Of a stretch of 64,000 nt of DNA, positions 46,683-64,000 are shown in pieces. The position numbers were made by a program, and so were the translations under genes. Within the stretch, counting starts at the first letter, position 1. Each line of letters opens with the position of its first letter. The stretch comes from Roseivivax isoporae LMG 25204 (GTDB lineage: Bacteria > Pseudomonadota > Alphaproteobacteria > Rhodobacterales > Rhodobacteraceae), in assembly GCF_000521865.1 (NCBI RefSeq), contig NZ_JAME01000015.1, forward strand, positions 41,113 to 105,112. The letters are read 5' to 3'. The notes below the pieces were generated by a model. That model was not told the origin of the DNA. It saw only the letters and a list, made by a program, of their open reading frames with translations, and made no database searches.

Positions 46683-46693
46683 ACATACTTAAG
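46683..46693. promoter_or_regulatory. ACATACTTAAG motif in leader of repeat protein
   Basis: ACATACTTAAG shares ACATAC-N3-AG with ACATACTTTAG and ACATACGAAAG found before the repeat proteins at 61497 and 63627. Here it lies 122 bases before the start codon instead of the 58-94 seen in those two. Confidence 0.35.
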
Positions 46694-46804
46694 AATGTAG
46701 ACCTCTGCGAGAAGGATGGTATGTAATGGCGACGAGAATGTATCACGACTCGCGCCACGTCTGCTGAATGCGGTCCCTCTGGCGCGGGCAAGGAGCGCGC
46801 CAAG

Positions 46805-49630
46805 GTGGTGTCCAGCGGGGAAAAAAGGGAAACCTCTACGCGCCATGCCGCGCAGGAGACGGTGCGCGCCCCGGACCTCGACCTCAGGCTGCGGGACGGC
46901 CCGAATGGGCGCGCTGACGCCGCGCCGTCCGGCATCGCCACGGCCGCGGCAAGTGCCATCGGCATGGGCCTCGCCGCGCAGAGCGCGACCGCGGACGGAC
47001 AGCAGGCGCTGCGGGACGTCGCCGACGCGGCAAAGGCGAACGCCGGCGAGCGCGAGGCGACCGAGGCTGCAGGTCCGGGCGAAACGCTGGTTGCGGGACC
47101 TGCGCGAACCGGCGAGGCGGCCGATGCGGCGCCGCCGGAGGCCGATGCAGCGGCTGCCGTGGGTCCCGTGCCCGTGGCCGATCCCGCAGCGGCGGGGGGC
47201 GATGCCGGCCCGCCTCCCGTCGAGATCGACGTCGCTGACGGCACCTTCCCGTTTCCCTCCCGCGCGGCCGAGGAGGCCCCCGATCCTGTCGAGGTCGCCC
47301 GCGCGGGAACGACTGCCGCAATCCAGGCCGCGCCCTCACCCTCCGTGAACGTGTCCGCGCAGGACGCCGGTGCCCCGCCGCTCGCGTCCGATCCGGGCTT
47401 CGAGGAAACCGCCCCGGAGGACGCGCTCGACACGGGTGTGGCGGATCGCCCGGTCGACGACACGGCCAGCGAGGACGGCGTGCTGGGCGACGTCCTCGAT
47501 CCTGTCGTCGCCGACGAAGGCCTGCTCGACAGCACGCTCGACACGGTCGTGGGGGGGGACGGCTTGGTCGATGGCGTGCTCGGGGATGGCGGTGTCGTCG
47601 ACGAGGTCCTCGATACCGTTTTGGGTGAAGGCGGCCTCCTGGACGGCGTTGCCGGCGAAGAGGGCCTGCTCGATGGCGTGCTGGGCGAGGACGGCGTGGT
47701 GGACGACGTCCTCGACACGGTTGTGGGCGAGGACGGGCTTCTCGACGGCGTGGTCGGCGAGGACGGCTTGCTCGACAGCACTCTCGACACGGTCGTGGGC
47801 GAAGAGGGCCTGCTCGATGGCGTGCTGGGCGAGGACGGCGTGGTGGACGACGTCCTCGACACGGTTGTGGGCGAGGACGGGCTTCTCGACGGCGTGGTCG
47901 GCGAGGACGGCTTGCTCGACAGCACTCTCGACACGGTCGTGGGCGAGGATGGCCTGGTCGACGGCGTTCTGGGCGAGGACGGCGTGGTGGACGACGTCCT
48001 CGACACGGTTGTGGGCGAGGACGGGCTTCTCGACGGCGTGGTCGGCGAGGACGGCCTGCTCGACAGCACGCTCGACACGGTCGTCGGAGAGGAAGGCCTC
48101 GTCGATGGCGCGCTGGGCGAGGACGGCGTGGTGGACGACGTCCTCGACACGGTCGTGGGCGAGGACGGGCTTCTCGACGGCGTGGTCGGCGAGGACGGCC
48201 TGCTCGACAGCACGCTCGACACGGTCGTCGGAGAGGATGGCCTGGTCGACGGCGTGCTGGGCGAGGACGGCTTGGTTGGCGGTCTTCTCGGTGGCCTGCT
48301 TGGCGGCGGATCGGAAGAGGCCGGGTCCGCTGTCGATGCCGGTGACGCGGCCGACGTGTCGGGGGAGGTCGGGGATACGGCCGACGTCATCGCAGACATG
48401 GTGGACGAGGGCGTCGCCAATGATCGCACCCTCGGAACCGTCCTTGGCGATGAAGGTGCGGTCGACGCCGTCCTCGGCGACGGCGGTGTGGTCGAAAGCG
48501 CACTCGACGCGGTTGGTGCTGGGGACGGCGTGGGGGATCCGCTCCTCGGAGAGGGCTCGGTCACCGATGATGTCGTCGAAGCCGTGGCCGGCGATGACGG
48601 CCTGTTGGACGCGGTCACGGGCGACGACGGTGTGCTTGACGATACGCTGGATGCGGTCACAGGCGACGCGGGCGTCATCGAGAACACCCTCGATACCGTC
48701 GTCGGTGAAGACGGTGTTCTTCATGGTGCCGTGGACGCCGTGTCGGACGGGGATGGGCTGATCGGGGGGCTGGTCGGCGGATTGCTGTCGCGCGGGGCAC
48801 GCGACCCGGCGCAGGCCGTCAGCGACGAGGTCGAGAGCGAGGAAGCGTCCGCGGAAACGACGGCCGCAAGTTCTGCCGAGGAGGCGGAGGGAGAGGCTCT
48901 GGCGGGCCGAGACGCGAGCGCGGCCCTGGTCGAGGAGACCGCCGTCGACGCGGGCGCGACTTCGGAAGGCGACCCGGACGATGCGGGCGAACCCGCCGGC
49001 GAACCGGTCGCCGGCGACATGCCGGAGGCGACTGCACCGTCCGCGGGTCCCGAGCCGGAGCCGTCGGACGCCGACGCCACCGACCCTGCCGCCACCGATG
49101 GCGTTGCTCCCGACGCGGGTTCCGGCGAACCACTGGCTGCAGACGCCGGAGAGGCGCCGGATGACGAGGACGACGGGTTCCTCGAAAGCCTGTTCGCCTC
49201 GGGAGACGGCGATGGCCTGCTCGACGGACTGCTCGGCGAGACCGACACCTTCGGCCTCGACGTCGTGCACTCGGTGGGCGACAGCGCCGACGACCTGCTC
49301 GGCGCGCTCGGGATCGATGGGCAACTTTCCGGCACGTTGGTGGATGACGGCATCATCGGCGGTGACGGCGATGCAGGCGCTGACGAGGTGGACATGCTGC
49401 TGTCGCGGATCCTTGGCAGCACCGTTGACGGCGATCTCTTTGCTGGCGGCCAGACCGCGCTCGACGCGCTGCTCGGGGGCGATGACACGCTGGTCGCCGA
49501 GGGCGACGACAGCCTGCTGGGCGAGGCGGCCATCGACGACGCCGTGGATGCGCTCTGGGGCGACAGCGGCGACGGCGGCGGACTGATCGGCGGCCTCTTC
49601 GGCGGGGCGACAGAGGAAGAGGGCGGCTGA
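46805..49630 (+). CDS. 941-residue Gly/Asp/Leu repeat protein, candidate type I secretion substrate
   Basis: Start is GTG at 46805 or 46808, with AAGGAGCG upstream. There is no signal peptide and no obvious BapA-prefix fold; an early Ala/Gly stretch (TAAASAIGMGLAAQSA, near residue 45) resembles the segment in the sister proteins. Residues about 220-500 are tandem units such as GEDGLLDGVVGEDGLLDSTL, with a 48-residue (144-bp) superunit in four near-identical copies. A Glu/Ser/Ala/Pro-rich spacer and a second, looser repeat block end in GDGGGLIGGLFGGATEEEGG. The chain is strongly acidic and Leu/Val-rich at fixed spacing. A secreted surface or matrix polymer is inferred; no known family is recognised. 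Confidence 0.75.
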   Translation: MVSSGEKRETSTRHAAQETVRAPDLDLRLRDGPNGRADAAPSGIATAAASAIGMGLAAQSATADGQQALRDVADAAKANAGEREATEAAGPGETLVAGPARTGEAADAAPPEADAAAAVGPVPVADPAAAGGDAGPPPVEIDVADGTFPFPSRAAEEAPDPVEVARAGTTAAIQAAPSPSVNVSAQDAGAPPLASDPGFEETAPEDALDTGVADRPVDDTASEDGVLGDVLDPVVADEGLLDSTLDTVVGGDGLVDGVLGDGGVVDEVLDTVLGEGGLLDGVAGEEGLLDGVLGEDGVVDDVLDTVVGEDGLLDGVVGEDGLLDSTLDTVVGEEGLLDGVLGEDGVVDDVLDTVVGEDGLLDGVVGEDGLLDSTLDTVVGEDGLVDGVLGEDGVVDDVLDTVVGEDGLLDGVVGEDGLLDSTLDTVVGEEGLVDGALGEDGVVDDVLDTVVGEDGLLDGVVGEDGLLDSTLDTVVGEDGLVDGVLGEDGLVGGLLGGLLGGGSEEAGSAVDAGDAADVSGEVGDTADVIADMVDEGVANDRTLGTVLGDEGAVDAVLGDGGVVESALDAVGAGDGVGDPLLGEGSVTDDVVEAVAGDDGLLDAVTGDDGVLDDTLDAVTGDAGVIENTLDTVVGEDGVLHGAVDAVSDGDGLIGGLVGGLLSRGARDPAQAVSDEVESEEASAETTAASSAEEAEGEALAGRDASAALVEETAVDAGATSEGDPDDAGEPAGEPVAGDMPEATAPSAGPEPEPSDADATDPAATDGVAPDAGSGEPLAADAGEAPDDEDDGFLESLFASGDGDGLLDGLLGETDTFGLDVVHSVGDSADDLLGALGIDGQLSGTLVDDGIIGGDGDAGADEVDMLLSRILGSTVDGDLFAGGQTALDALLGGDDTLVAEGDDSLLGEAAIDDAVDALWGDSGDGGGLIGGLFGGATEEEGG
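47688..48263 (+). repeat. Coding tandem repeat, about four copies of 144 bp
   Basis: GGACGACGTCCTCGACACGG recurs at 47701, 47845, 47989 and 48133, exactly 144 bases apart. The translated unit alternates blocks of 14 and 10 residues (GEDGVVDDVLDTVV, GEDGLLDGVV, GEDGLLDSTLDTVV, GEEGLLDGVL). Copies differ by few bases, implying recent expansion or homogenisation. Confidence 0.92.
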
Positions 49631-49930
49631 TGCGTGGAATGGAGCAACCCGTTGGCAGTATGGACTTTCCGTATGGCGCGTCCGGCCAATTCACGATGCG
49701 GGCCATGTGCTTGGAAACATCCCAGACGCGACGGTGAAGGTGCAGGGCAGCCGGGTGCGGGATCGACTTTCGGGCGCGTGACCTCGCGCTTTCGTCGATG
49801 TGCGGGAAGCGATTCGCCGCGGCGCGGAATTCCCATGCCCTGGTGCGAGACGTCGAGGCGAGGCGTGATGGATCGGGATTCGAGCGGATAATTCTGTGGT
49901 TATGGATTCGTGTATCGACCTAAATCCAGG

Positions 49931-49959
49931 TTGACAGGCGTTCCGTGCATATTCATATT
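49931..49959 (+). promoter_or_regulatory. Sigma70-type promoter of the type I secretion operon
   Basis: TTGACA (49931-49936), a 17-base spacer, then CATATT (49954-49959). This is the best consensus match seen in the window, on the right strand to drive genes from 50396. The implied leader is about 430 bases, unusually long. Confidence 0.5.
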
Positions 49960-49973
49960 TCGGATACTCTTCA

Positions 49974-50002
49974 AACATTACCTACATGTATCTGAAAATG
50001 TT
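49974..50002. promoter_or_regulatory. Nested palindromes just after the secretion-operon promoter
   Basis: AACATT (49974-49979) and AATGTT (49997-50002) flank a central TACATGTA (49983-49990), giving a nearly symmetric site centred near 49987. This is a plausible operator overlapping the predicted transcription start. Confidence 0.45.
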
Positions 50003-50395: not shown

Positions 50396-51196
50396 ATGAG
50401 CATTGAGGTCGTCGTGCAACCCGCGGGGGGAGACGAAGTCCCGTCCCGCCTGTCCGGGTCGCGCCTGATGCTCAATGCCGCGACGACTCTCACGCTGCCC
50501 GAAACGACCCCGCCGATCTCCGAGACGCTGAAGGTGGGCGCCGATCTCAGGATGTCCTTCGAGGATGGCCGGCAACTCTATGTCGAAAACTTCTTCTCGA
50601 TCGATGAGCAGGGCAATTTCAGCACGCTCCAGACCGCCGATGGCCGCACGGCCGTATCGGGACTGAGCGCTCCGGAACCTGCGGCTTCGGATCTCTCCGG
50701 GGCGGCGGACCTGTCCGGGGACGCCGTGCCGACCGCGGCTGCTGCAGCTTCTGATGGCGACGCCGGAGGCCTTGTTGCGGAGGACGCCGGGGGAGGCGGG
50801 GACGCCCAAGGCTGGTCGAGCACTGCGACGCTTGCCGGCCTGGGCCTCGTGTCGGGGTTCGGATCGACGAGCCTGCTGACATCCGACGGCGGCGGGGGGG
50901 ATGGCGGCGAAACCGGGGCACCGACACCTGCGCCTGATGCCGCGACCGCGGTTGCCGCGGGGGCGGCTCCGGACCTGGGCGACGACGTCGATGCGCTGCT
51001 GACCCTGATCGAGGATGGCGCGGGCGACGCCCAGTTCGCCGCGGACATCGCCGCGCTTACGGGCGGGGCGCCGCACGCGCAGGACGAGGCCGGCGTGACG
51101 TTTCGCAGTTCGGCGGATGCAGCCCTCGCGCACTCCGACGCGCCGCCCACGGTCTTCGACATCGATCCCGCCACTGTCACGGAGGGTGAAGGATGA
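50396..51196 (+). CDS. Short BapA-prefix-like protein, first gene of type I secretion operon
   Basis: A 266-residue protein. Residues 1-85 form a compact beta-rich domain (MLNAATTLTLPETTPPISET, ADLRMSFEDGRQLYVENFFS) like the prefix domain at the N-terminus of BapA/Bap/LapF-type adhesins. An acidic Ala/Gly/Asp linker follows, then a hydrophobic STATLAGLGLVSGFGSTSLL segment and a low-complexity tail. Unlike true adhesins it has no repeats, and it ends at the ATGA shared with the TolC gene. It may be a structural subunit, a secretion pilot, or a retained plug of the machine. GAGGAGCC precedes the start. Confidence 0.7.
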   Translation: MSIEVVVQPAGGDEVPSRLSGSRLMLNAATTLTLPETTPPISETLKVGADLRMSFEDGRQLYVENFFSIDEQGNFSTLQTADGRTAVSGLSAPEPAASDLSGAADLSGDAVPTAAAAASDGDAGGLVAEDAGGGGDAQGWSSTATLAGLGLVSGFGSTSLLTSDGGGGDGGETGAPTPAPDAATAVAAGAAPDLGDDVDALLTLIEDGAGDAQFAADIAALTGGAPHAQDEAGVTFRSSADAALAHSDAPPTVFDIDPATVTEGEG

Positions 51197-52443
51197 GAGC
51201 AGCGTTCCGAAGCATTCTCGTCATGGCCGCGTGCGCCTGGATGATGCTTGGCTCCGCCGCGCTGGCCCAGATGGCCCTGCCGCAAGCGGCGCGGCTTGCC
51301 ACCGAGCTTGATCCGAACGTGACCTCGCTGCGCCAGCAGGTTGCCAGCCGTTCTCTCGACGTTCAGGCGGCGCGGGACGAGTATTACCCAAGTGTCAGCG
51401 TTTCCGCGGACAGCAACACCACGGACGCGAATGGCCCCGGCCTCACGCTCACGGTGTCGCAGGTCCTGTACGATTGGGGGCTCATCCGCAGCAAGATCAG
51501 GGCTGCCTCGCAGGTGCGGGTGCAGGCGGTGTCGGACCTCAAGATGGCCGTGGAGGACCTGTCGCTGCGCGTCTCGGAGGCCTTTCTCGACGTCGAGGTC
51601 TTCGAGCGCAAGATCGCCCTCACGCGAGAATACATGGACTATGCCGGACGGCTCGCCCGGCAGGCAGAGGACCGCGCCCGCGCAGGGCTCGGAGACAACG
51701 GCGAGGTGGCGCGGGCCCGGCTCGAGATCGCCCGTGCGCAGGACCAGCTGAACAGCCTGCGTTCCGATCGCGACATGGCGCTGACACAGATCTCTTTCCT
51801 CACGGGGCGCGCGCCCGGGGGCGTGCTGCCGCCGCCCAATCTCGATTTCCCGGAACAGTATGGCACCGATGCCGCGATCCTATCTGCCGTGCGCATCGCC
51901 CCCGACTACATCGCCGCACGGGCGCGCGCCGCCGAGGCCGAGGCCGGGGTCGCGCGGGCCCGCGCGTCGCGGCTGCCCACGATCAAGTTGCAGGCGCAAG
52001 GACGCACCGATCTGAATGGCGGGCGCACGCGCACGGCGGTCGGGGTTTCGGCGGGCGTGGACCTCAACGCGTCGAGCATAGGTGGACGCGCCATCCAGGT
52101 GGCACAGGCGGATTTCGAGGCGGCGAAGTCTTCGCTGCGCGCCGTCGAACGCCAGATGTCCAATACCGCCCGCACCGCGCTGCAGCACATTTCGGCGCTG
52201 CGCGCCACCGAGGCCGCGCGCGGCGTGCAACTCGACCAGGCCGAAAGGGTGCTGGAGAACTACGAACAGCAGTTCATCGCGGGTCAACGCGAGCTGATCG
52301 ACGTGCTGACGACGGGGCGCGATCTCTACGACGCGCAGATCGATCAGGTGGATACGTACGACGAACGAAAACGCACGGAATACGAGGCCGCACGAGATCT
52401 CGGCGTTCTGGGCACGCTGATCCTCTCGTCGTCGCCGACCTGA
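51193..52443 (+). CDS. TolC family outer-membrane channel of type I secretion system
   Basis: A 416-residue TolC-type protein, shorter than the housekeeping one. Signal peptide MLGSAALAQ; paired OEP repeats with VSVSADSNTTDANGPGLTLT, VLYDWGLIRSKIRAASQVRV, and YEQQFIAGQRELIDVLTTGR near the end. The start overlaps the preceding gene by 4 bases. It is followed by the ABC exporter after a 38-base gap, as in dedicated LapE/BapA-type export operons. Confidence 0.9.
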   Translation: MRAAFRSILVMAACAWMMLGSAALAQMALPQAARLATELDPNVTSLRQQVASRSLDVQAARDEYYPSVSVSADSNTTDANGPGLTLTVSQVLYDWGLIRSKIRAASQVRVQAVSDLKMAVEDLSLRVSEAFLDVEVFERKIALTREYMDYAGRLARQAEDRARAGLGDNGEVARARLEIARAQDQLNSLRSDRDMALTQISFLTGRAPGGVLPPPNLDFPEQYGTDAAILSAVRIAPDYIAARARAAEAEAGVARARASRLPTIKLQAQGRTDLNGGRTRTAVGVSAGVDLNASSIGGRAIQVAQADFEAAKSSLRAVERQMSNTARTALQHISALRATEAARGVQLDQAERVLENYEQQFIAGQRELIDVLTTGRDLYDAQIDQVDTYDERKRTEYEAARDLGVLGTLILSSSPT

Positions 52444-52481
52444 CGAAGCGAGGAGCTTGTAATGAGTTGGAGTGTCTTCAA

Positions 52482-54608
52482 ATGTCCACCTTAGCTCATT
52501 CAGATCCCTTGGTTCTCGGCCTCGTGGAGCTCTGCCGGGCGCAGGGCGTGTCCACCTCGGCCGTGCGGCTGACGGACGGGCTCCCGGTGTCGCGAGAGAC
52601 CGGGATGCAGGTCGAACTCGCCCCCGCGGCCCTGCGCCGCATCAACATGAGCTGCCGGGTCTGCCGCGACCCGCTTTCCAGCTTCCCCTCCCACAGCCTG
52701 CCCGTGCTGCTGTTCCTGAAGGACGGCGGCACCGCCGTGCTGGAGCGGCAGAGCAAGCTCGGCGCGACGGTGATCCTGCCCGAGACCGAGGGCGGGCGGG
52801 TGCGCTGGACCCAGCAGGAACTGGCGGAAAAGCACGACGGCCGCGTCCTTGTCTCGAAACCCATCGACATCGTGACGGACAGGCTCGACGAGCCGAGCCC
52901 CAACCGCCAGCATTGGATCCTCGGACCGGTGCTGCGCAACTGGTCGATCTACCGGGATGTCATCATCGCGTCGCTCGCGGCCAACGTCCTGGCCGTCGCG
53001 ACCGCGCTCTTCTCGATGCAGGTCTACGACCGCGTGGTGCCGAGCAACGCCTTCGACACGCTCTGGATTCTCGCGAGCGGTGTGGCCCTCGCCATCCTGC
53101 TCGAACTGGTGCTGCGGGTGAGCCGCGCCTCGCTGATCGACGTATCGGGGCGCGATCTCGACCTGAAGCTCTCGTCGCAGCTCTTCGACCGGGTCGCGAA
53201 CATGCGGCTCGCGCACCAGCCCGCGTCGACCGGCGTCTTCGCAAACCAGGTACGCGACTTCGCCACCGTGCGCGAGTTCTTCACGTCCGGCACCGTGACC
53301 GCGCTGTGCGACATCCCTTTCGTCCTGGTGTTCGTCGCGGTGATCTGGTTCATCGGCGGGCCCATCGCGCTCGTCACGCTCGCGGGCGTGGTCCTGACGG
53401 TCGTGCCGGGTCTGCTGATGCAGAAGCGCCTCGCGCGCGCCTCCAGAGAGAACGCCCGCGAGGCGGCGGCGTTGAACGGGCTGCTTCTCGAGACCATCAC
53501 GAATCTCGAGACGGTCAAGGCGGCACGGGCCGAGACCCGTCTGCAGCACACCTATGCCCAGCTGTCCGCCACCATGGCGGGGACCGCGGTGACCACGCGC
53601 AACCTCACGAACGTGATGACCCAGCTTGTGAGCGGCATCCAGAAGATCGCCTATGCGGGGGTCATCATCACGGGCGTCTACCTGATCAGCGCCGGCGAGC
53701 TCACCGTCGGCAGCCTCATTGCCTGCACCATGCTCTCGAGCCGCACCATGACGCCCATGGGGCAGGTGGCGGGCCTGCTGGCCCGCTGGCAGCAGGTGCG
53801 CGCCGCGATGGAAGGCCTCGACCGGATCATGGAGCTGCCGGTCGAACGTCCCGCCGACCGGCACTTCGTGCGTGCGGCTTCCCTTCAGGGGGAATACCGG
53901 CTCGAGGACGTCGTCTTTCGACATGACCCGGCGGCGCCTCCGGTGGTCAACATCCGCGAGCTGAGCATCGCGCCTGGCGAACGGATCGCGCTGCTGGGGG
54001 GCAACGGGGCGGGCAAGTCGAGCTTCATGCGGCTGATGGCAGGGCTCACGGATCCGCAGCAGGGGTCGGTCCTGCTCGATGACCTCGCCCTCAGCCAGAT
54101 CGACCCGCTCGATCGGCGTCGCCAGATCGGGTACCTGCCGCAATCCGTGGCGCTGTTCCAGGGTACGCTGCGCGACAACCTTCTGCGCGACCATGGTCTG
54201 CATTCCGACGAGGACCTTCTGCAGGCGCTCGACGCGGTGGGACTCGGCAGTTTCGTGCGCCGTCACGTGCGCGGGCTCGACCTGCAGATCCATGGCAACG
54301 GCAACGTGTCGGGCGGTCAGCGGCAGGCCATCGGCCTGGCGCGCATCCTGCTGCAGGATCCGAGGATCGTGCTGCTCGACGAGCCGACGGCGGCGTTCGA
54401 CCACATCACCGAGGCGAACGTCATCGCGCATCTCAAGACGTGGCTCGAGGGGCGGACCACGATCATCTCCACCCATCGGCGCGAACTGCTGGCGCTGACG
54501 CAGAGGACGCTGGTGCTGAAGGACGGCAAGATCGCGCGCGACGGGGATCTCATGCAGATCCTCAACGCGGCGCGTGCCAAGACCTCGCAGGTGAAGGCGG
54601 TGACATGA
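52482..54608 (+). CDS. Type I secretion ABC exporter (LapB-like, degenerate C39 domain)
   Basis: A 708-residue permease-ATPase. Residues 1-130 are a C39-peptidase-like domain without a recognisable catalytic Cys (SHSLPVLLFLKDGG retains the C-terminal part), as in exporters for RTX-type and LapA-type proteins that keep their N-terminus. Then six helices, and the ATPase with Walker A GGNGAGKSS, signature VSGGQRQAIGLAR, Walker B IVLLDEPTAAFD and His in ISTHRRE. The start at 52482 is in frame with the conserved region. It overlaps the HlyD gene by 4 bases (ATGA). Confidence 0.93.
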   Translation: MSTLAHSDPLVLGLVELCRAQGVSTSAVRLTDGLPVSRETGMQVELAPAALRRINMSCRVCRDPLSSFPSHSLPVLLFLKDGGTAVLERQSKLGATVILPETEGGRVRWTQQELAEKHDGRVLVSKPIDIVTDRLDEPSPNRQHWILGPVLRNWSIYRDVIIASLAANVLAVATALFSMQVYDRVVPSNAFDTLWILASGVALAILLELVLRVSRASLIDVSGRDLDLKLSSQLFDRVANMRLAHQPASTGVFANQVRDFATVREFFTSGTVTALCDIPFVLVFVAVIWFIGGPIALVTLAGVVLTVVPGLLMQKRLARASRENAREAAALNGLLLETITNLETVKAARAETRLQHTYAQLSATMAGTAVTTRNLTNVMTQLVSGIQKIAYAGVIITGVYLISAGELTVGSLIACTMLSSRTMTPMGQVAGLLARWQQVRAAMEGLDRIMELPVERPADRHFVRAASLQGEYRLEDVVFRHDPAAPPVVNIRELSIAPGERIALLGGNGAGKSSFMRLMAGLTDPQQGSVLLDDLALSQIDPLDRRRQIGYLPQSVALFQGTLRDNLLRDHGLHSDEDLLQALDAVGLGSFVRRHVRGLDLQIHGNGNVSGGQRQAIGLARILLQDPRIVLLDEPTAAFDHITEANVIAHLKTWLEGRTTIISTHRRELLALTQRTLVLKDGKIARDGDLMQILNAARAKTSQVKAVT

Positions 54609-55780: not shown

Positions 55781-55819
55781 GCCGCCCTTTTCCAGACCAT
55801 GACGAAGCAAGGAGGTCAC

Positions 55820-57151
55820 GTGCCTGACCCCACTCTGCGCAGGGTGCGCCGGTGCGCGTCCCGCCATTTCGCCGGTGCACTTGTTGCGATCGCCGGGACG
55901 ACCTGCGGCGCGAGCGCCGCGGCCGACGTGTTCCGGCAGGTGGAGGTGCGCGGCGCCGAATTCATTCCCGAAGCCGACATCCAGATGACATGCGGAGCGC
56001 AGGCGGGCGTGGATTATTCGGTATACGAGATCGAGGCCATCGAGGACTGCCTGATGAGCACGGGCGTCTTCGAGGCCGTTTCGGTGAGCGGCGAGGGCGA
56101 GACGCTGGTGATCGCGGTGTCCGAGATCGACGACAGCCCGGGCCGGATCGAGGCCGCGGTCAACTACGTCTCGGACGACGGCTTCTTGGCCGAGCTATCG
56201 GCCGAGAAGTACAACCTTTTCCCCGATACCTACGGTGCCTTGCGACTGAGCGCCAACGCGGATGTCCGCGCGCTCGAAGCCAACCTCTATCGCGCCGATC
56301 AGTGGGGCGAGGACTGGGATCTCGGGCTGGACGTGATCGCGCGCGAGGCGAAGCCGGAGGATGCCGGCTATTCCGAACGCGGTCTGCGGATCGAGCCGTT
56401 CGTGGCCTGGACGCCATCGGAAGACCTGCGCCTCGAAGCGGGGCTCGGCTGGCGCGACTACCGTCTGGCGGATGTCGACAGCGAGGCGAGCGCCCTCCTG
56501 ATCGCCGAGGAGACGGGCAGCATCTCGGCACCCTACCTGCGGTTCGGATTGAGCTTCGGGCGAAACGTCGACCTCGGGGACAACCCGTCGGGCTGGGCGA
56601 AGGCCGGATACATGCTGCGGCTGGACCAGTTCATCTGGAACATCGGCAGCGGCGAGGCGCTGTCGGATACGCGGTTCGACCTGACCACGCAGCTGCCGTT
56701 GGGCGAACGTATCCGGCTGCTGACCGGTCTGCGCGGCGGTGCCGTGCGCGGCCTCGATGGGAACGACACGCGCGCAATCGACCGGTACTTCCCAGGGGCG
56801 GACACGTTCCGCGGATTTGCGCCGCGCGGGGTCGGTCCGCGCGACGAGGGCACCGCGCTCGGCGGCAACACCTACGTCGTTGGGTCGCTCGAGGCGCAGC
56901 GGGATCTCGGGCGTGTGCTGCGGCTGCCGATGCGCGCGGGGATCTTCCTCGACACCGGGGCGAGCTGGGATCTCGACGACGATCTGGGCGGACGCATCGA
57001 TGACGGCTGGTCGAACCGCAGCAGCGTGGGCCTCTCGCTCACCTTCGAGGTGTCCGAGACCCCGGTGTCGCTGTATGTCGCGGGGCCCGTGTCACAACGG
57101 CCGGGCGACGAGACGCAGGCGTTCGGCATCTCCTTCGCGGCACGCTTCTAG
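55820..57151 (+). CDS. One-POTRA outer-membrane barrel (ShlB/BamA-superfamily-like)
   Basis: A 443-residue protein: signal peptide ending near TTCGASAAAD, one POTRA-like domain (VFRQVEVRGAEFIPEADIQM with a CGAQ...EDCLMSTG pair), then about 350 residues of alternating beta strands ending in AFGISFAARF with a terminal Phe. It resembles outer-membrane proteins of the BamA/TpsB superfamily, which insert or export surface proteins. The start is taken as GTG at 55820 because AAGGAGGT precedes it, though an in-frame ATG lies at 55799 (seven residues longer). It ends the secretion operon; its stop shares CTAG with the convergent glycosyltransferase gene. Confidence 0.72.
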   Translation: MPDPTLRRVRRCASRHFAGALVAIAGTTCGASAAADVFRQVEVRGAEFIPEADIQMTCGAQAGVDYSVYEIEAIEDCLMSTGVFEAVSVSGEGETLVIAVSEIDDSPGRIEAAVNYVSDDGFLAELSAEKYNLFPDTYGALRLSANADVRALEANLYRADQWGEDWDLGLDVIAREAKPEDAGYSERGLRIEPFVAWTPSEDLRLEAGLGWRDYRLADVDSEASALLIAEETGSISAPYLRFGLSFGRNVDLGDNPSGWAKAGYMLRLDQFIWNIGSGEALSDTRFDLTTQLPLGERIRLLTGLRGGAVRGLDGNDTRAIDRYFPGADTFRGFAPRGVGPRDEGTALGGNTYVVGSLEAQRDLGRVLRLPMRAGIFLDTGASWDLDDDLGGRIDDGWSNRSSVGLSLTFEVSETPVSLYVAGPVSQRPGDETQAFGISFAARF

Positions 57152-58380
57152 GAAACGCCGGCCCGCGCCGCCCTGTTGTCCATGGCCTGCCGGAAGAGCC
57201 GCATGTAGCGCGGCGCCACCGCCTGGAGGCCGAACTGGACGCGCGTGAGCGCGCGGGCCGCGGCCCCGAGCCGGTGGCGCCGGGCAGGGTCTCCCGCGAG
57301 GGCCTCGATTTCGGCAAGCCAGGCGTCATCGTCGTCCGGCAGCAGCACACCCGACACGCCGTCCTGGATGAGTTCCGAGGCATAGCCGCGATCCGGCGCC
57401 AGAACGCAGCCGCCGCGCCCGAGGATCTCGACCAGTCCCCAGTTCGCCACGCCGAACTTCAGGGGATAGAGGAAAAGGTCGATCGCGGAGAGCCGCGCCG
57501 CGAAATCCTCGTAGGGAAGCTTGCCCGGAAACTCGATGACATCCGCCGCCCGCGGATACATCCTGAGCAGGTGGTCCCGGAAACTTTCGACCTCGCCTCC
57601 ATAAGTCCGCTCCACCCATTGGTCCTCGTAGCCGTAGGTCGCGCCGGTGGCGCCGCCGAGCGCCACGAACCGCGCCTCGAGACCACGCTCGACCAGCCGA
57701 TCGACGAGCCGGACGTAGGTTTCGAACCCCTTGGAGCTCGACAGGTCGCGGGCCGAGAAGCCGATGGTGACCGGGCCGGACGCCTGCTCGGGCGGGGGCG
57801 TGGCCTCGAAGCGGAAACCTTCGAGCTGCACCTCGATGTTGCCCTGCAATGTCTTGGGAAACATGCGCTTGGCGTGATGGCTTGGGCAGATCACCAGGTC
57901 GCTGCGCACTGCCTGATGCAGGTTCAGCATCTCGGTGTTCTTGTCCGCCATGCGCTGCGCCTGGTCGGGCGGATATGCCGGGTCCCATCCATGAGCGCGG
58001 TAGCTCGGAAACTCGATGTAGCTCACGATCGCCGCGTCGATCTCGTCGTAGAGGAAATGCGGAGCGCCCCACAGAGAATGGGCCACCACGACGTCGATCT
58101 TCTTCTTCGCCTCGAAGGCCTGCAGCGCCTTCAGAAGCCCGCGTCCGATGCGTGCCGACCGCTCGACCTTTGCGGAATAATAGTAGCTCTGCGGTCCCGT
58201 CACCGCGCCGTCGGGCTTGAACCCCAGGATGTGCGCGCCGCGGTGGGTGTTGCGGCTGCGGTGGCCGGGCGTGGTCAGGAAATACGTCTCGGCCTGGCCG
58301 GTGTGCCGCAGGTAATCGCAGAGATCCCCGAACTGGCCGGGATAGACGGCACCCACAAAGACGATGACGGGTTTGGCCAA
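57148..58380 (-). CDS. Glycosyltransferase family 4-like protein
   Basis: A 410-residue GT-B enzyme: VFVGAVYPGQFGDL near the N-terminus, IGFSARDLSSSKGFETYVRL for the second Rossmann domain, and the C-terminal donor-site ANWGLVEILGRGGCVLAPDR. No membrane helix. A TTG start at 58380 is proposed because GGAGGG sits just upstream; the next ATG upstream (58437) lies in the divergent region. A role in glycosylating secreted repeat proteins or in making an attached glycan is inferred from position only; acceptor and donor are unknown. Confidence 0.82.
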   Translation of the reverse strand: MAKPVIVFVGAVYPGQFGDLCDYLRHTGQAETYFLTTPGHRSRNTHRGAHILGFKPDGAVTGPQSYYYSAKVERSARIGRGLLKALQAFEAKKKIDVVVAHSLWGAPHFLYDEIDAAIVSYIEFPSYRAHGWDPAYPPDQAQRMADKNTEMLNLHQAVRSDLVICPSHHAKRMFPKTLQGNIEVQLEGFRFEATPPPEQASGPVTIGFSARDLSSSKGFETYVRLVDRLVERGLEARFVALGGATGATYGYEDQWVERTYGGEVESFRDHLLRMYPRAADVIEFPGKLPYEDFAARLSAIDLFLYPLKFGVANWGLVEILGRGGCVLAPDRGYASELIQDGVSGVLLPDDDDAWLAEIEALAGDPARRHRLGAAARALTRVQFGLQAVAPRYMRLFRQAMDNRAARAGVS

Positions 58381-58499
58381 TGTACCCTCCGTTCTTCTGG
58401 CAGGCGCAGCATCCGGCTGCGCACTCGGCCATACCATAGATAGCTGAAGGGGGAGGGTATATATGCTTTCGGCGGTTTCCGACCTGTCCCTGCGGAGAG

Positions 58500-59138
58500 T
58501 CAGATCAGCTCGAGGTCGCGGGCGACGATGACCGCCTGCGTTCGGTTGCTGGCCTCCAGCTTCGTGCAGATCGACTTGACGTGCATCTTGATCGTCGCCT
58601 CCTTGAGCCCGAGGGCAGCGCCGATGGCACTGTTGGACTTGCCCACGGCGAGCTCCGCCAGGACCTGCATCTCGCGCTCCGAGAGCGGCACGTCGCGTTG
58701 CTCGCGTGGGGGCACCCGGCGATGCTCGATGAGCTCGACAGGAATGTAGCGTCCGCCGTTCGCCATGAAGCGGATCTCGTTGTAGAACGCGCTGAGAGAC
58801 GTGGTCTTGAGGACGAAGCCGGCTCCGCCCATGGCGAGCACCTCCGGCACCAGGTGGGCGGGCGGATTGCTGGTGAGCAGGGCAACCGGCTTGCTGCCAT
58901 TGCGCGCGATCGCCTTTCCGAGTCCCTCGAGACCGTTCATTCCCGGCATGTTGAGGTCGACCAGCACGAGGTCGAACGGTCCCTCGCTGTCGATAAGGGC
59001 GAGCGCCGCGTCGAGATCGGGTGCGGTCGTCGCGGTGACGTCCGGCAGGTTCGAGATGAACTGCGCGAACATCTCGAGCACCATCGCGTGGTCGTCTGCA
59101 ATGAGAAGCCGAACCGGTCCCTGGTCCTGAGCTGTCAT
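58500..59138 (-). CDS. LuxR/NarL family response regulator
   Basis: A 212-residue regulator: receiver domain with acidic pocket IADDHAMV, phospho-acceptor Asp61 in LVLVDLNMPGMNGLEGLG, conserved Lys in AGFVLKTTSL; and a C-terminal LuxR HTH (SEREMQVLAELAVGKSNSAI, then LKEATIKMHVKSICTKLEAS). The start at 59138 follows the receiver boundary. It is oriented with and adjacent to the hybrid kinase gene, so they form a phosphorelay that probably controls this locus. Confidence 0.93.
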   Translation of the reverse strand: MTAQDQGPVRLLIADDHAMVLEMFAQFISNLPDVTATTAPDLDAALALIDSEGPFDLVLVDLNMPGMNGLEGLGKAIARNGSKPVALLTSNPPAHLVPEVLAMGGAGFVLKTTSLSAFYNEIRFMANGGRYIPVELIEHRRVPPREQRDVPLSEREMQVLAELAVGKSNSAIGAALGLKEATIKMHVKSICTKLEASNRTQAVIVARDLELI

Positions 59139-59295: not shown

Positions 59296-61257
59296 CTAAC
59301 CCGCCCATGCCACGACGGCGGCACGGGTATCCTCGATGACGGCAGCGAGGTCGGTAAGTGTGGCGGCCCCGGGATCGCCCCCCGCCTTCACCCTGTCCTC
59401 AAGCGCGCGCAGATGTCGCTCCACCCGCGTCAGGCCGGTAAGTCCGCAGGCTCCCGTGGCGGCGTGCAGCATGCAGCCGGACCGGTCCGTCACGCCCTCG
59501 GCGCGCAGCCTGTCCAGCGCGGCTTCCGCTTCGTTCAGGGCTCGTGTCATGAAGCGAACGGCGCCCTCCCGCCCGAGCTCCGAGCCGAGTTCCGACACCA
59601 CTTGCGGATCGAAGGAGTCACCGGCGTCCTGCAGCGCAGGCGGCGATTCCAGTTGCTGCGGGGCGGGCAGGGGCGCCTGTTTCAGGATCTGGTGCAAGGC
59701 GTCGCAGAGCTGCAGCGGTCGGATCGGTTTCTCGAGCACCTTGACCATTCCGGCCCTGTGGCAGGCGTCCCGGATGCGGTCGTCCACGTGGGCGGTGAGC
59801 CCGACCACCCGGAGCCCCGCCGCGAAGCGGCCGCTGCGCACGCCGTCGCGGATCCGATGCGCGAGTTCGACCCCGGTCATGCGCGGCAGCGTCACGTCCG
59901 ACAGAACGAGAGAGACCGCGCGCGCGTCCTCCGAGCCGAGAAAATCGAGGGCTTCCGCTCCGCTGCCCGCCACATGCACCGTGGCCCCTGCCCGACGCAG
60001 CACGTGCGCGACCCATTCCTGGCTCGCCGCGCTGTCTTCGACCACCAGCATGTTCGCATCGAGGAGCGGGGGCGCGTGCCGGACCGCGGCCTCCGGTACA
60101 TCGGGGGTCACGGCGTCCTCGGCGGCGCGGGGCAGGCTGAAGGTGGCCCGCAACCTCGTGCCGATCACCGTCCCGTCGCCGCCGGGGCCCCCGTGCCGGT
60201 CCTCGATCTCGAGGCGCCCGCCGAGCTGCCGGAGCGCATGCGCCAGGACATTGAGGCCGCCCGAGGGGCGCTGGCGTGCGCTCGTATCGGTGCTCGAAGG
60301 CACGGCCTGGGCCTGCGCCTCTCCCAGTGCGACTTTCAGCCGGCGTTTCTGCGCGTCGGGCAGGCCGCCGCCGAGATCGGCCACTTCGAGCGTGACGCCC
60401 ATGCGTGCCTCCGCACCGTCGGCGTCCAGCGTGTCCTTGAGCGGCGCGAGTGTCAGCGTCACGTCGATCTCGCTGCCGCCGTGCTTCACCGAGTTGTCGA
60501 TCATGTTCTGAAAGAGCGCGCGCACGAAGCGTACCGGTCCCACAAGCCGCTCAAGCCCGTCGGGCGCACTGACCCGCAGCGTCGCGTCCCGTGCCTCCGC
60601 GAGCGGGCGCAGGATCTCGATGAGCGATGCCAGTTCTCCGGCAGGCGCGAAGGCCTCGTCGGGCTGAAGCCCGCCCGCTGCCTGCTCTCCCTTGATCACG
60701 GCGAGCACGTTGCTCACGTGTTCGAGGGACAGATCCGCCGCGCGGCGGAACCGGGCGAGTGCCGCCGTTTCCTGGCTGCCGTCTCCGTTGTCCCGGACCA
60801 GAACCTCGGCGGTGGCGACGAGGGACTGGATCGGGGTGCGCAGGTCATGGGCAACGCGCAGCAGCGTCGCGGCGCGGGCGCGGTTTCGCAGCCAGGTAGA
60901 TTCCGCGTCCGTCTCGGAAAGCCGGAGGAAATATCCCGAGGCGCGACCCAGCGCCAGATGCACGAGCTCGCCCTCGACCGCCATGTCGCCGATCGACGTC
61001 GATACCGGCGCGCTGCCGGCACGCCGCGTCCGGGCACAGAGCTGGGGCCAGCGCAGCTGGTCGTGCAGGGTGGCCGTGTCCAGACCGAGGCGCTTGGCCG
61101 GGGCGTTGATCAGGAGGATCTCGCCGCTCTCGCTTGCGAACAGGACTGCCCGGCGGTCGGTCGCGATCAGCCGCGCGATGATCTGCAGGGCAAGCCGAAA
61201 GGATTGATGGTCCTCGTCGGCTTTCGCAGGGGGCGTGCTGGAAGGATGGTCCGCCAT
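59296..61257 (-). CDS. Soluble hybrid sensor kinase with receiver and Hpt domains
   Basis: A 653-residue cytosolic kinase with no membrane helices. Layout: a PAS-like region (30-115), HisKA with RVAHDLRTPIQSL (His137), an HATPase domain (about 235-378; NMIDNSVKHG, DLGGGLPD and GGLNVLAHALRQLGG), a receiver domain (about 402-528; LVLSDVTLPRMTG, Asp454; Lys in KVLEKPI), and a C-terminal Hpt with HAATGACGLTGL (His598). Such a chain passes phosphate to a separate response regulator, and the LuxR gene downstream is the obvious partner. The signal is internal or bound through the PAS-like region; none is identified. Confidence 0.92.
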   Translation of the reverse strand: MADHPSSTPPAKADEDHQSFRLALQIIARLIATDRRAVLFASESGEILLINAPAKRLGLDTATLHDQLRWPQLCARTRRAGSAPVSTSIGDMAVEGELVHLALGRASGYFLRLSETDAESTWLRNRARAATLLRVAHDLRTPIQSLVATAEVLVRDNGDGSQETAALARFRRAADLSLEHVSNVLAVIKGEQAAGGLQPDEAFAPAGELASLIEILRPLAEARDATLRVSAPDGLERLVGPVRFVRALFQNMIDNSVKHGGSEIDVTLTLAPLKDTLDADGAEARMGVTLEVADLGGGLPDAQKRRLKVALGEAQAQAVPSSTDTSARQRPSGGLNVLAHALRQLGGRLEIEDRHGGPGGDGTVIGTRLRATFSLPRAAEDAVTPDVPEAAVRHAPPLLDANMLVVEDSAASQEWVAHVLRRAGATVHVAGSGAEALDFLGSEDARAVSLVLSDVTLPRMTGVELAHRIRDGVRSGRFAAGLRVVGLTAHVDDRIRDACHRAGMVKVLEKPIRPLQLCDALHQILKQAPLPAPQQLESPPALQDAGDSFDPQVVSELGSELGREGAVRFMTRALNEAEAALDRLRAEGVTDRSGCMLHAATGACGLTGLTRVERHLRALEDRVKAGGDPGAATLTDLAAVIEDTRAAVVAWAG

Positions 61258-61402
61258 CGATGCCCGGCGCTCCTCGAGAGATCACGGCCGCTTCATCCGG
61301 CCCGTCAGGTTCCGCGACCTTAGCGAGACGGGCAGCGCATTTACACACAAAAGGCGATCCGCCGGTGAGGGATATGCGCATCAGAATTTGCGTCCCGCTC
61401 AA

Positions 61403-61438
61403 AAACATACTTTAGTTTATAAATAAAACATACGAAAG
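61403..61438 (+). promoter_or_regulatory. Two-part conserved element upstream of repeat protein (copy 1)
   Basis: AAACATACTTTAGT, 11 bases, then ACATACGAAAG. The same two blocks with a 9-base spacer precede the gene at 63627 at almost the same distance (58-59 bases from the second block to the ATG). Each block contains ACATAC-N3-AG, a likely direct-repeat binding site. Confidence 0.6.
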
Positions 61439-61496
61439 TGTGGCTATTGCGAACTTGGGAATCCGCTTCTGGCGCCCGCATAGACAGGACACGAAC

Positions 61497-63365
61497 ATGG
61501 CAACGACCGAATTGAACGCCGGCACCTCCGGCACCGTGACGATCGCGGCGACACAAGCCGACATCCAGGGATACTCGCGCGCCGGCACCGACCTGATCGT
61601 GGCGCTGAACTCGGGCGACACGATCCGCATCAACGACTTCTACAGCACGTCGACGGATACCCCCGTGAACCGTCTCCTGTTCCAGGATGGCACCTATTCC
61701 GGTGTCGACGGCACGCTTTCGGAAGAAGAGATCGCCGGGCTCGGTCTGGCCATTCCTCAAGACGTCGCCGCCGGCATCGGTGCGTCGCTGGCCGGCATCG
61801 GACTTGCGCTCAGCGCAGACGATTCGGACGACTCCGACGATGATGCGAACGCGCCGACGGACATGACGGACGGAACGGACCCGACCGACGGCACCGACCC
61901 GACCAATGGAACGGATCCGACCGACGGGACGGATCCGACAGATGGCACCGAACCCACGGACGGCACGGAGCCCACGGACGGGACGGAGCCCACGGACGGG
62001 ACGGAGCCCACGGACGGGACGGAGCCCACGGACGGGACGGAGCCCACGGACGGAACGGAGCCCACGGACGGAACGGAGCCCACGGACGGCACCGAACCTA
62101 CGGACGGCACCGACCCGACGGACGCCACGGAGCCTGAGGCCGGGCTGCTCGATCCCGTGATCGCCGACGAGGGCCTTCTCGGTGACCTCACCGGCAATGA
62201 CGGCGTCCTCGGGCCCGTGACCGGCTCCGAGGGGCTGCTTGGGGATCTCGTGGGCGAGGACGGCGTCCTCGCGCCCGTCACGGGGTCGGACGGTTTGCTG
62301 GGCGACCTGCTCGGTGACGGTCTGCTCGGCGACAGCGATGGCTCGGAACCGCTTCTCGACGGGCTTCTCGACCCGGTCCTGGGTGATGACGGGCTCGTCG
62401 CCGAAGTTGTCGGCGAGGATGCCGGTCTCCTCGATTTCGCGCTTTCGGACGAGGGCCTGCTCGGGGACGTCACCGGCAATGACGGCCTCCTGGGAGACGT
62501 CACCGGATCGGACGGGCTGCTCGGCGACCTCGTCGGAAACGACGGTCTGCTGGGGCCGGTCACCGGCTCCGACGGGGTTCTGGGCGACCTTGTCGGGGCG
62601 GGCTTGCTCGGCGACGGTACCGGCGACGACGGTCTCGCTTCCGATCTCCTCGATCCGCTGCTCGGCTCCGAAGGTCCCCTCGGCGATCTTGCCGGTCAGG
62701 ACGACGGCCTGCTCGACGGGGTGGTCGCCGATGAAGGGCTCCTCGGCGAGCTGACGGGCAACGAGGGGCTTTTGGGCGACGTCACCGGTTCCGAGGGTCT
62801 GCTTGGCGATGTCGTGGGTGACGACGGCGTGCTGGCCGACGTGACGGGGGCCGAGGGGCTGACGGGAGACCTGCTCGGCAGCGGGCTTCTGGGCGACGGG
62901 CAGGGGAACGACGGCCTCGTGTCCGACCTCCTGACGCCGGTGATGGATGCGGCCGATCCGGTCGTCGGTCTCGTTGCCCCCGGGGATGACGGCCTTCTTG
63001 ACGCGGTCTTGGCTGACGGTGGAGTCCTCGGCGACGTGACTGGCAACGAGGGCGTGATCGGAGAGGTCTCGGGCTCGGACGGCCTGCTGGGCGATCTCGT
63101 GGGCAACGATGGTCTCCTCGGCGACGTGACCGGCTCCGACGGACTCGTGGGTGATGTGCTTGGAGCCGGTGTTCTGGGCGAGGGGCCCGCATCTGACGAC
63201 GGCCTGCTCTCGGGCGTCCTGGACGGGGGGCTCGTGGGAGGACTTCTGGACGGCGAAGCCGACGGCCTCCTCGGCGGGGTGATCGGGGGCGACGGCCTTG
63301 CGGACACGCTCCTTGGTGGATCGGACCTCCTTTCGGGGGTATCCGAGCCGCTCGACGCCGTCTGA
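61497..63365 (+). CDS. 622-residue BapA-prefix-like protein with PTDGT linker and LLGD repeats
   Basis: Start ATG at 61497. Residues 1-85 form a beta-rich BapA-prefix-like domain (YSRAGTDLIVALNSGDTIRI, NDFYST). Residues 90-110 hold a Gly/Ala hydrophobic segment (GIGASLAGIGLALSAD) and an Asp run. Residues about 128-211 are (D/E)PTDGT hexapeptides, 14 units. The remaining 400 residues are repeats such as GNDGLLGDVTGSDGLLGDLV with period near 9-10. No C-terminal RTX nonapeptides (GGxGxDxxx) or VCBS domains are seen. Type I export is inferred from the neighbouring operon. It ends in a clear terminator. Confidence 0.8.
   Translation: MATTELNAGTSGTVTIAATQADIQGYSRAGTDLIVALNSGDTIRINDFYSTSTDTPVNRLLFQDGTYSGVDGTLSEEEIAGLGLAIPQDVAAGIGASLAGIGLALSADDSDDSDDDANAPTDMTDGTDPTDGTDPTNGTDPTDGTDPTDGTEPTDGTEPTDGTEPTDGTEPTDGTEPTDGTEPTDGTEPTDGTEPTDGTEPTDGTDPTDATEPEAGLLDPVIADEGLLGDLTGNDGVLGPVTGSEGLLGDLVGEDGVLAPVTGSDGLLGDLLGDGLLGDSDGSEPLLDGLLDPVLGDDGLVAEVVGEDAGLLDFALSDEGLLGDVTGNDGLLGDVTGSDGLLGDLVGNDGLLGPVTGSDGVLGDLVGAGLLGDGTGDDGLASDLLDPLLGSEGPLGDLAGQDDGLLDGVVADEGLLGELTGNEGLLGDVTGSEGLLGDVVGDDGVLADVTGAEGLTGDLLGSGLLGDGQGNDGLVSDLLTPVMDAADPVVGLVAPGDDGLLDAVLADGGVLGDVTGNEGVIGEVSGSDGLLGDLVGNDGLLGDVTGSDGLVGDVLGAGVLGEGPASDDGLLSGVLDGGLVGGLLDGEADGLLGGVIGGDGLADTLLGGSDLLSGVSEPLDAV
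61878..62129 (+). repeat. Coding 18-bp tandem repeat, 14 units ((D/E)PTDGT)
   Basis: Units start every 18 bases from 61878; nine consecutive units (61950-62111) encode EPTDGT, mostly GAGCCCACGGACGGGACG. The linker is acidic, Pro-containing and Thr-rich, so extended and potentially O-glycosylated. Confidence 0.9.
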
Positions 63366-63405
63366 GGCGTAGCGCGTCGGCATTCCGGGACGTGTTCTCC
63401 CTGTG

Positions 63406-63434
63406 GGCCCCGCTTCGGCGGGGCCTCGTCTTTT
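63406..63434 (+). terminator. UUCG-loop intrinsic terminator
   Basis: GGCCCCGC-TTCG-GCGGGGCC (63406-63425) followed by TCGTCTTTT. It ends the 622-residue protein gene. Confidence 0.92.
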
Positions 63435-63535
63435 CCGGTTTCGGACGGGTGGAACGCATCCTGCGCTGCCGCGGGCAGGGGCTGCTGCACGCTGCCGTCC
63501 GAAAATTGCGGCAACAGTTCATCTTGAGATTGACG

Positions 63536-63569
63536 AAACATACTTTAGTGATAAGCATACATACGAAAG
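63536..63569 (+). promoter_or_regulatory. Two-part conserved element upstream of repeat protein (copy 2)
   Basis: AAACATACTTTAGT, 9 bases, ACATACGAAAG; 25 of 25 block positions match the copy at 61403-61438. Confidence 0.6.
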
Positions 63570-63626
63570 ATATTCGTGCGGCCGTCCGGACGGTTGTCCC
63601 GGCCAAAGACTTGAGAGGGACGGTAA

Positions 63627-64000
63627 ATGGCTGAACAAGTTATCCAGGCAGGGCCAGAGATCGGCATCCGCATCGATGCGATGCGGGAAGACATCTCGCG
63701 GTTCTCGCGCACGGGGGAGGATCTGATCGTCGATCTCAGGAACGGCGATCGCATCCTCGTGCGGGATTTCTACACGCCTGCCGAGAACAATTCCCTGCAC
63801 AGCCTGATTCTCGGTGACTCGACCGAAGCCGGCGTCGTCGGCACGCTCGACGACGCGGACTCCACCTTCGGCCAAGAAGAACAGATTGCCCTCGCCGGTC
63901 TCGGCGCGGCGGGCCTCGGCCTCGCGCTGAGCGGCGGTGACGACGGGGGAGACGATGACGACGGAGCCCCCCTTCCGACCGACCCGACGGACGGCACCGA
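63627..64000 (+). CDS. BapA-prefix-like repeat protein, 3' end outside window
   Basis: Only the first 124 residues are inside the window. They parallel the protein at 61497: prefix domain (ISRFSRTGEDLIVDLRNGDR and ILVRDFYTPAENN), hydrophobic AGLGAAGLGLALSGGDD, acidic run, then the beginning of a PTDPTDGT linker at the edge. GAGAGGGACGG precedes the ATG. The gene is therefore a tandem paralogue; its repeat region lies beyond the window. Confidence 0.85.
   Translation, partial: MAEQVIQAGPEIGIRIDAMREDISRFSRTGEDLIVDLRNGDRILVRDFYTPAENNSLHSLILGDSTEAGVVGTLDDADSTFGQEEQIALAGLGAAGLGLALSGGDDGGDDDDGAPLPTDPTDGT

Follow-up and report, generated by a model that had tools for sequence, protein, structure and literature searches.

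Adhesins of the LapA type are retained via their N-terminus, and in the prevailing view of type I secretion systems (T1SS) each exporter pore itself holds one adhesin. The LapA/LapEBC system comprises TolC, ABC and HlyD components together with repeat-rich proteins carrying an N-terminal module, as given in the available part of a T1SS review (PMC8277102). For Paracoccus denitrificans, the accessible part of one paper (PMC5588039) describes BapA as an envelope-associated protein of 2,211 amino acids (aa) with 891 Asp-Ala repeats, encoded beside bapBCD and required for biofilm formation, and credits the three-gene exporter with at least 11 further predicted substrates of the RTX family; BapA is also treated in PMC13235738, likewise available in part. 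Here we describe a locus of Roseivivax isoporae LMG 25204 from a window of 64,000 nucleotides (the whole stretch of DNA that was analysed), where a T1SS operon includes the gene of a short Omp85 barrel. Judged from sequence comparison, this conserved T1SS and its one-POTRA BamA-like barrel probably export acidic repeat proteins and keep them at the cell surface, where they would serve as adhesins.

From left to right the window holds the repeat gene rep1, a five-gene operon (50396-57151, plus strand, with overlaps or gaps between genes of at most 38 bp), a convergent glycosyltransferase gene, a response regulator and a hybrid histidine kinase on the strand opposite to the operon, rep2 and the start of rep3, with repeat genes on both flanks. 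An initial annotation of the window had proposed the operon (prefix-like protein, TolC, ABC exporter, HlyD and barrel) as well as the convergent glycosyltransferase, the LuxR regulator with its hybrid kinase and the flanking repeat proteins, and open reading frames and family scans confirmed this gene set. As it recurs in dozens of genomes, the set goes beyond chance. The contig stops at the window end (64000) and rep3 is therefore truncated.

We interpret the locus as a surface-adhesin system of the Bap/LapA type that has a dedicated Omp85 barrel and several mid-sized substrates and is distributed across Rhodobacterales. The exporter, of LssB type, and the HlyD adaptor both score above their family cut-offs, as do rep2 and rep3 for the BapA prefix; the prefix protein stays below that cut-off and rep1 has no such match (Table 1). 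No giant adhesin is seen among the substrates, their lengths being 941, 622 and at least 124 aa with no Ig, VCBS or RTX domain over cut-off. The contrast with BapA/LapA drawn in the initial annotation stands as far as mid-sized proteins without RTX or VCBS units are concerned, since the Pfam scan called no RTX, VCBS or Ig family in rep1 or rep2 and the one related match, HCBP_related in rep2, was below cut-off (18.5 vs 21.4 bits). It is weaker than claimed, however, because two substrates carry the BapA prefix. Compared with LapA/LapEBC, several substrates of 600-1,000 aa take the place of one giant protein, the genome has no LapG and the Omp85 barrel is dedicated.

P. denitrificans BapABCD resembles the present locus in having T1SS genes that adjoin an acidic low-complexity protein (PMC5588039); a barrel, a glycosyltransferase, a relay or GLLGD modules are not mentioned in the accessible part of that paper. 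Because several of the loci described below encode BapA_N proteins with (Asp-Ala)n stalks that match the description of P. denitrificans BapA (L020, L022, L024, L033, L051 and L056, and one upstream protein in L014), BapABCD fits as the nearest studied relative found, likened by description only. Among the matches listed in a literature search by title and start of abstract, no T1SS with a dedicated Omp85 barrel was described, and the words 'Omp85', 'BamA' and 'POTRA' are absent from the first 300,000 of the 747,799 characters of the review PMC8277102.

Evidence for a dedicated barrel comes from its co-occurrence with the exporter in 390 genomes of the window's order, the same set being used for the barrel, exporter and repeat-module searches. 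The barrel search gave 19 matches, 8 of which were dropped (28-32% identity, open frames of 773-828 aa, the size of an ordinary BamA). The short barrel was thus counted in 11 genomes, and the exporter clade, delimited at E<=1e-240 by our own choice, was found in the same 11 (Fisher 1.4e-21, relatedness uncorrected). The repeat proteins were looked for apart from the exporter operon, as the initial annotation had suggested, and the GLLGD module (E<=1e-6) was present in 10 of the 11 exporter-and-barrel genomes and in 0 of the 379 others (Fisher 5.5e-19, relatedness uncorrected), in line with that annotation.

The BapA prefix is far more widespread, with a BapA_N match in 151 genomes, 140 of them without the short barrel (140/379). 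Two or more BapA_N matches were found in 8 of the 11 barrel genomes vs 11 of the 379 others, these being counts of matches and not of proteins, to which the prefix gene can contribute one. Additionally, 29 loci of about 2-3 kb were read for repeats, which were seen in 3. These 3 all belong to barrel genomes, and none of the 22 loci from other genomes showed repeats; the barrel-genome loci L092, L095, L096 and L107 had none either, and a contig end lies no more than about 0.5 kb from three of these. The module search at E<=1e-6 is the better test, because such short stretches could miss distal modules. Five non-barrel BapA_N frames (L090, L098, L103, L112, L117) share a comparable hydrophobic Gly/Ala stretch and lack GLLGD runs in the sequence available, and some of these frames run on, by eye, into Ig-like sequence. 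Since prefix and hydrophobic stretch also occur together in non-barrel loci, the shared N-terminus looks like a general trait of BapA-type adhesins; what looks special to the present type of locus is the modules and the barrel.

A GTDB genome scan, from which 80 of 89 relatives were taken, gave at least 47 short-barrel loci (L010-L056); the matches L057-L089, which cover part of the query at 25-34% identity, were taken for BamA without one-by-one annotation. L017, whose strain title is the same as that of L016, was kept among the 47 loci and excluded from the box, stalk and tree counts. ABC and HlyD genes lie at most 10 kb upstream of the barrel in 43 of the 47 loci, with ABC identities of 57-82%, and all 43 also have TolC except L043, whose stretch begins inside the ABC gene; the stretch of L041 begins about 1 kb before the barrel. 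The commonest order is rep1, prefix gene, TolC, ABC, HlyD, barrel and a glycosyltransferase or other small gene, followed by the regulator and kinase on the opposite strand and then by BapA_N repeat genes, the barrel standing downstream of HlyD across most loci. Among the prefix-protein counterparts scanned, BapA_N exceeds the cut-off in L035, L040 and L134. The locus is found on complete plasmids of Alloyangia, Sulfitobacter, Qingshengfaniella and Pseudosulfitobacter, and a variant on a Thioclava plasmid.

In the AlphaFold model built on an alignment of 27 sequences (mean pLDDT 82.8), the barrel protein has a signal helix, 16 strands and a single POTRA-like domain, which spans about residues 47-109. 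The single POTRA claimed in the initial annotation is thus seen in the model; Pfam gives Omp85 only, without POTRA_2 (PF08479), and the two PF08479 matches of the genome sit on other contigs. In a Foldseek search with the model BamA ranks first, including the crystal structure of a one-POTRA BamA (4c4v), and TamA ranks lower. Two cysteines of the POTRA, C65 and C84, belong to the columns that at least 90% of the 27 sequences share. The BamA family TIGR03303 scores 122.5 bits, under its curated cut-off of 297.15. The protein is therefore like BamA in its 16-strand Omp85 barrel and best fold match and differs in its one POTRA vs five, its 450 aa and its linkage to a T1SS operon. Two-partner secretion (FhaC/TpsB) also places a dedicated Omp85 protein beside large repeat proteins; here, however, the barrel gene has no POTRA_2 match and the partner exporter is a T1SS. 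A protein search (7,998 candidates scored) returned 86 relatives, 80 of 360-469 aa and 6 BamA-like proteins of 752-784 aa, and the organisms shown among them are, as we take their taxonomy to be, all Rhodobacterales. As to the system's 'own assembly barrel' of the initial annotation, co-occurrence supports it as a dedicated partner of the exporter, whereas assembly is one putative role: the barrel may serve the substrates as an anchor or as an assembly factor.

The repeat proteins are strongly acidic (231 D+E vs 19 K+R in rep1, 135 vs 3 in rep2), and neither rep1 nor rep2 contains cysteine. In an alignment of 19 downstream proteins, two of them from the window, BapA_N of about 70 residues is followed by a hydrophobic Gly/Leu stretch, a variable spacer and modules of about 60 residues that are built of 10-residue GLLGD units. 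A hydropathy test found a hydrophobic 15-mer behind the prefix in 54 of 55 long BapA_N substrates. The spacer, which we read as a stalk, occurs as (TDP)n, (TDGTDP)n, (PD)n, (PE)n, (GD)n or (DA)n, and in the Celeribacter proteins P0087 and P0094 its slot is taken by three bacterial Ig/cadherin-like domains. The rep1-like upstream proteins mostly lack BapA_N; 17 of 26 have an AIGMGLA-like motif by a strict pattern, and five of the nine that fail it carry, by eye, AIGMGLV. The model of rep2 (mean pLDDT 63.4, pTM 0.27) shows a confident BapA_N and then a low-confidence disordered region over the hydrophobic stretch and spacer, with the Gly/Leu stretch (about residues 80-105) as a low-confidence helix, and modules of short helices about 10 residues apart (block pLDDT of 82-89 for the first module and of about 61-82 for the rest). 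Foldseek gave no match to this model at E<=0.001. By their BapA prefixes and Ig-like chimeras the substrates fall among the surface adhesins, and the biofilm role of P. denitrificans BapABCD, taken as an analogy, is likewise consistent with the surface system proposed in the initial annotation.

The glycosyltransferase was compared with stalk composition in the 34 loci with a scorable stalk, a stalk being called Thr-rich at a mean Thr of at least 0.2, a threshold set after inspecting the data. Thr-rich stalks were found in 17 of the 18 loci that include the glycosyltransferase and in 4 of the 16 that do not (Fisher 4.5e-5). Within Celeribacter, C. ethanolicus has the enzyme and Thr-bearing stalks (0.25), and the two C. 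baekdonensis loci, where the gene is absent from the locus, have low-Thr stalks (0.10 and 0.02). Sulfitobacter dubius, another carrier of the locus, has the glycosyltransferase. An exporter tree of 42 sequences needs 7 changes for each of the two traits. The glycosyltransferase thus appears tied to Thr-rich stalks, in a way that is not yet firm phylogenetically, and Thr O-glycosylation of the stalk may precede export.

An unsupervised motif search in 55 regions upstream of long BapA_N genes returned TACATACTTAAG with a log-likelihood of 320.7; three Markov shuffle controls, with 12 restarts each vs 25 for the real set, reached 54-76. The palindrome ACATACTTAAGTATGT was matched with at most 4 mismatches 92 times in 884 kb (47 stretches), where about 4 matches are expected from Markov shuffles: 56 upstream of repeat genes, 7 at the kinase, 6 at a small gene, F14, 4 at the glycosyltransferase, 4 at others and 15 elsewhere. 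Permuted palindromes are a fairer control, because the box was derived from the same loci, and 150 of them gave a mean of 7.9 and a maximum of 51 (from one sharing its core with the box), none equalling 92. L044 and L045 have no good match upstream of their repeat genes. Within the 4.9 Mb of its own genome the box occurs at up to 3 mismatches in only two places, before rep1 and rep2, and its backward control gave no match there. The pair ACATACTTTAG ... ACATACGAAAG is found in the window only before rep2 and rep3, and in 0 of 100 shuffles. Kinase residues His137, receiver Asp454 and His598 of the C-terminal HPt-like segment, for which Pfam makes no HPt call, are conserved in at least 90% of 37 sequences, and the receiver Asp of the regulator in at least 90% of 39. 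The palindrome common to substrate promoters supports the regulation that the initial annotation had claimed; the relay may act on the ACATACTTAAGTATGT box, and the predicted regulon of the locus is small.

Table 1. Features of the locus in the window, with family scores and box copies
Feature	Position	Strand	Description
Palindromic box ACATACTTAAGAATGT	46683..46698		Upstream of rep1; 1 mismatch to ACATACTTAAGTATGT
rep1	46805..49630	+	941-aa acidic Gly/Asp/Leu repeat protein; GTG start; repeat periods 24/48
rep1 N-terminal region			AIGMGLA motif; no BapA_N
Prefix protein	50396..51196	+	266 aa, without repeats; first operon gene; BapA_N 21.1 bits (cut-off 27)
TolC-family outer membrane channel	51193..52443	+	PF02321 153.5 bits; TIGR01844 144 bits (below cut-off 225)
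Type I secretion ABC exporter, LssB subfamily	52482..54608	+	TIGR03375 808.8 bits (cut-off 693.1)
HlyD periplasmic adaptor	54605..55780	+	TIGR01843 307.6 bits (cut-off 208.65)
Omp85 barrel	55799..57151	+	450 aa; PF01103 92.7 bits (cut-off 24)
GT4-type glycosyltransferase	57148..58437	-	PF12000 106.7 bits; PF00534 38.2 bits; convergent with operon
NarL/LuxR-type response regulator	58500..59138	-	PF00072 and PF00196
Hybrid histidine kinase	59296..61257	-	HisKA (below cut-off), HATPase, receiver, C-terminal HPt-like segment
Two box copies	61405..61443		Kinase/rep2 intergenic region, upstream of rep2; 3 and 4 mismatches to ACATACTTAAGTATGT
rep2	61497..63365	+	622 aa; BapA_N 45 bits (cut-off 27), residues 1-75
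rep2 inner plan			Gly/Leu hydrophobic stretch about 80-105; (PTDGT)n spacer to residue 214; GLLGD modules near residues 215, 309, 404 and 499
Pair ACATACTTTAG ... ACATACGAAAG	63538..63569		Upstream of rep3; more than 4 mismatches to full palindrome
rep3	63627..64000	+	At least 124 aa; BapA_N 43.1 bits (cut-off 27), hydrophobic stretch, beginning of (PTDGT) spacer

For rep2 the ATG at 61497 is more likely to be the start than the GTG at 61440, because the alignment of its relatives begins at that Met. For the ABC exporter, Pfam gave no C39 match. To the left of rep1 (43841-46582) the window appears by eye to encode an iron-siderophore ABC transporter with two permeases and an ATPase.

The loci of relatives vary in several ways. 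Tad-pilus-like genes lie between HlyD and the barrel in L030, L040, L042-L047, L052 and L134, and parts of them in L037 and L041; the insert has a secretin and CpaD, mostly also TadE and TadG, and the families were confirmed by Pfam in L040, partly by annotation in L134 and by similarity in the others. In Sulfitobacter sp. DSM 110093 (L131, NZ_CP085169.1) insertions put about 13 kb between the barrel and the glycosyltransferase-regulator-kinase-repeat block, and a barrel is also found on a second plasmid. Small proteins without a Pfam match, F9 and F14, often occupy the glycosyltransferase position (e.g. L020 11991-12458, L040 11411-11995), and in L048 and L049 the palindrome lies upstream of F14. 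The record of L010 (JAFKDC010000027.1) is named Enemella evansiae, which we take to be an actinobacterial name, and is likely mislabelled, as it holds a Rhodobacterales-type locus. Several stretches stop in or beside a Thr/Asp stalk repeat (the window at 64000, also L013, L018, L027, L035 and L052), the window doing so at a contig end, as others probably do too, and draft genomes may for this reason undercount repeat genes.

Other explanations of the locus were weighed against export and surface retention by T1SS and barrel. Instead of being a partner of the substrates, the barrel could act as insertase for another component that the system has in the outer membrane, such as the TolC-like channel. 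Its BamA-like fold and sequence, the latter under the family cut-off, and its place in the same operon as TolC agree with this; housekeeping BAM normally assembles TolC proteins, however, and 140 of the 151 genomes with a BapA_N match do without such a barrel, and we regard an insertase as somewhat unlikely. The BapA_N matches in genomes lacking the barrel might also suggest an ordinary BapA-type adhesin locus in which barrel and glycosyltransferase are mere passengers, yet the exporter clade (E<=1e-240) came with the barrel in 11 of 11 cases among the 390 genomes and the barrel has kept its place downstream of HlyD across most loci, which makes passengers quite improbable.

Polymerisation of the repeat proteins into a heteropolymeric fibre or matrix, in which the prefix protein would form the base and rep1-rep3 the subunits, would account for the same upstream box on several repeat genes, a repeat-free BapA_N protein opening the operon and the regular short helices of the model; considering how modest this model is and that it has no Foldseek match, we think a fibre unlikely. 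It is very improbable indeed that the repeat proteins are not exporter substrates at all, but stay in the cytoplasm or leave by some other route. In favour of this, a C-terminal type I signal is no more than suggested by the endings of 69 complete repeat proteins, counted without a control set: the last residue is V, I, L, A, F or G in 55, and 61 carry an acidic residue among the final four. Against this explanation stand the tight co-occurrence and adjacency with the exporter, the BapA_N prefix and the Ig-like chimeras.

Some findings also weigh against the reading that we prefer, export by the T1SS with retention by the BapA prefix. One exporter genome, G363, lacks the repeat module at E<=1e-6. 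L048 and L049 have the barrel and the relay with no exporter match within 10 kb on either side, L037 carries only distant ABC and HlyD matches (26-27%), and 9 of the 47 stretches, some of them incomplete, have no assigned repeat gene (L025, L037, L040, L042, L043, L046-L049). The exporter operon has no clear palindrome in nearly all loci (1 'prefix' match among the 92, none at TolC). For the stalk link, besides the late choice of threshold, the tree offers only 4 independent pairs (3.3 agree, 0.7 tie, none opposite; sign test median p 0.25), and L041, L052, L028 and L029 are Thr-rich though the glycosyltransferase is absent at the locus, L014 being mixed. T1SS substrates normally bypass the periplasm and the role of a POTRA is thus not obvious. 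Furthermore, a search for LapG (PF06035, E<=0.01) in the genome that the window comes from (99.85% complete) gave no match, and release of the LapA type is therefore not supported.

In the mechanism that we propose, the repeat substrates would exit via ABC, HlyD and TolC, and their BapA prefix and hydrophobic stretch would remain at the envelope as an anchor, like the retention of LapA-type adhesins, from which an extended stalk would reach out to a GLLGD head on the outside. Since barrel and exporter are so tightly paired and several substrates are usual, the barrel may handle the substrates after export: with its POTRA presumably facing the periplasm, it would receive or stabilise the anchor, and one exporter could serve several substrates. 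The glycosyltransferase, presumed cytoplasmic, would glycosylate stalk Thr in loci with Thr-rich stalks, and the kinase-HPt-regulator relay would control the substrate genes via the palindrome. A more specific version, which we put forward tentatively and consider doubtful, is a hybrid type I/Omp85 route, where the prefix stalls at TolC, the barrel takes it over and anchors it in the outer membrane, and the freed exporter goes on to build a mixed, stalk-glycosylated coat.

What appears to be new here, as far as sequences can tell, is the palindrome, the exchangeable stalk slot and the link between glycosyltransferase and stalk, and possibly an anchoring step. A T1SS clade that travels with its own BamA-like barrel in the genomes sampled suggests a second way of anchoring T1SS adhesins. 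The exchangeable stalk and its link to a glycosyltransferase would make a testable case of adhesin glycosylation, and the palindrome may offer a ready regulon.

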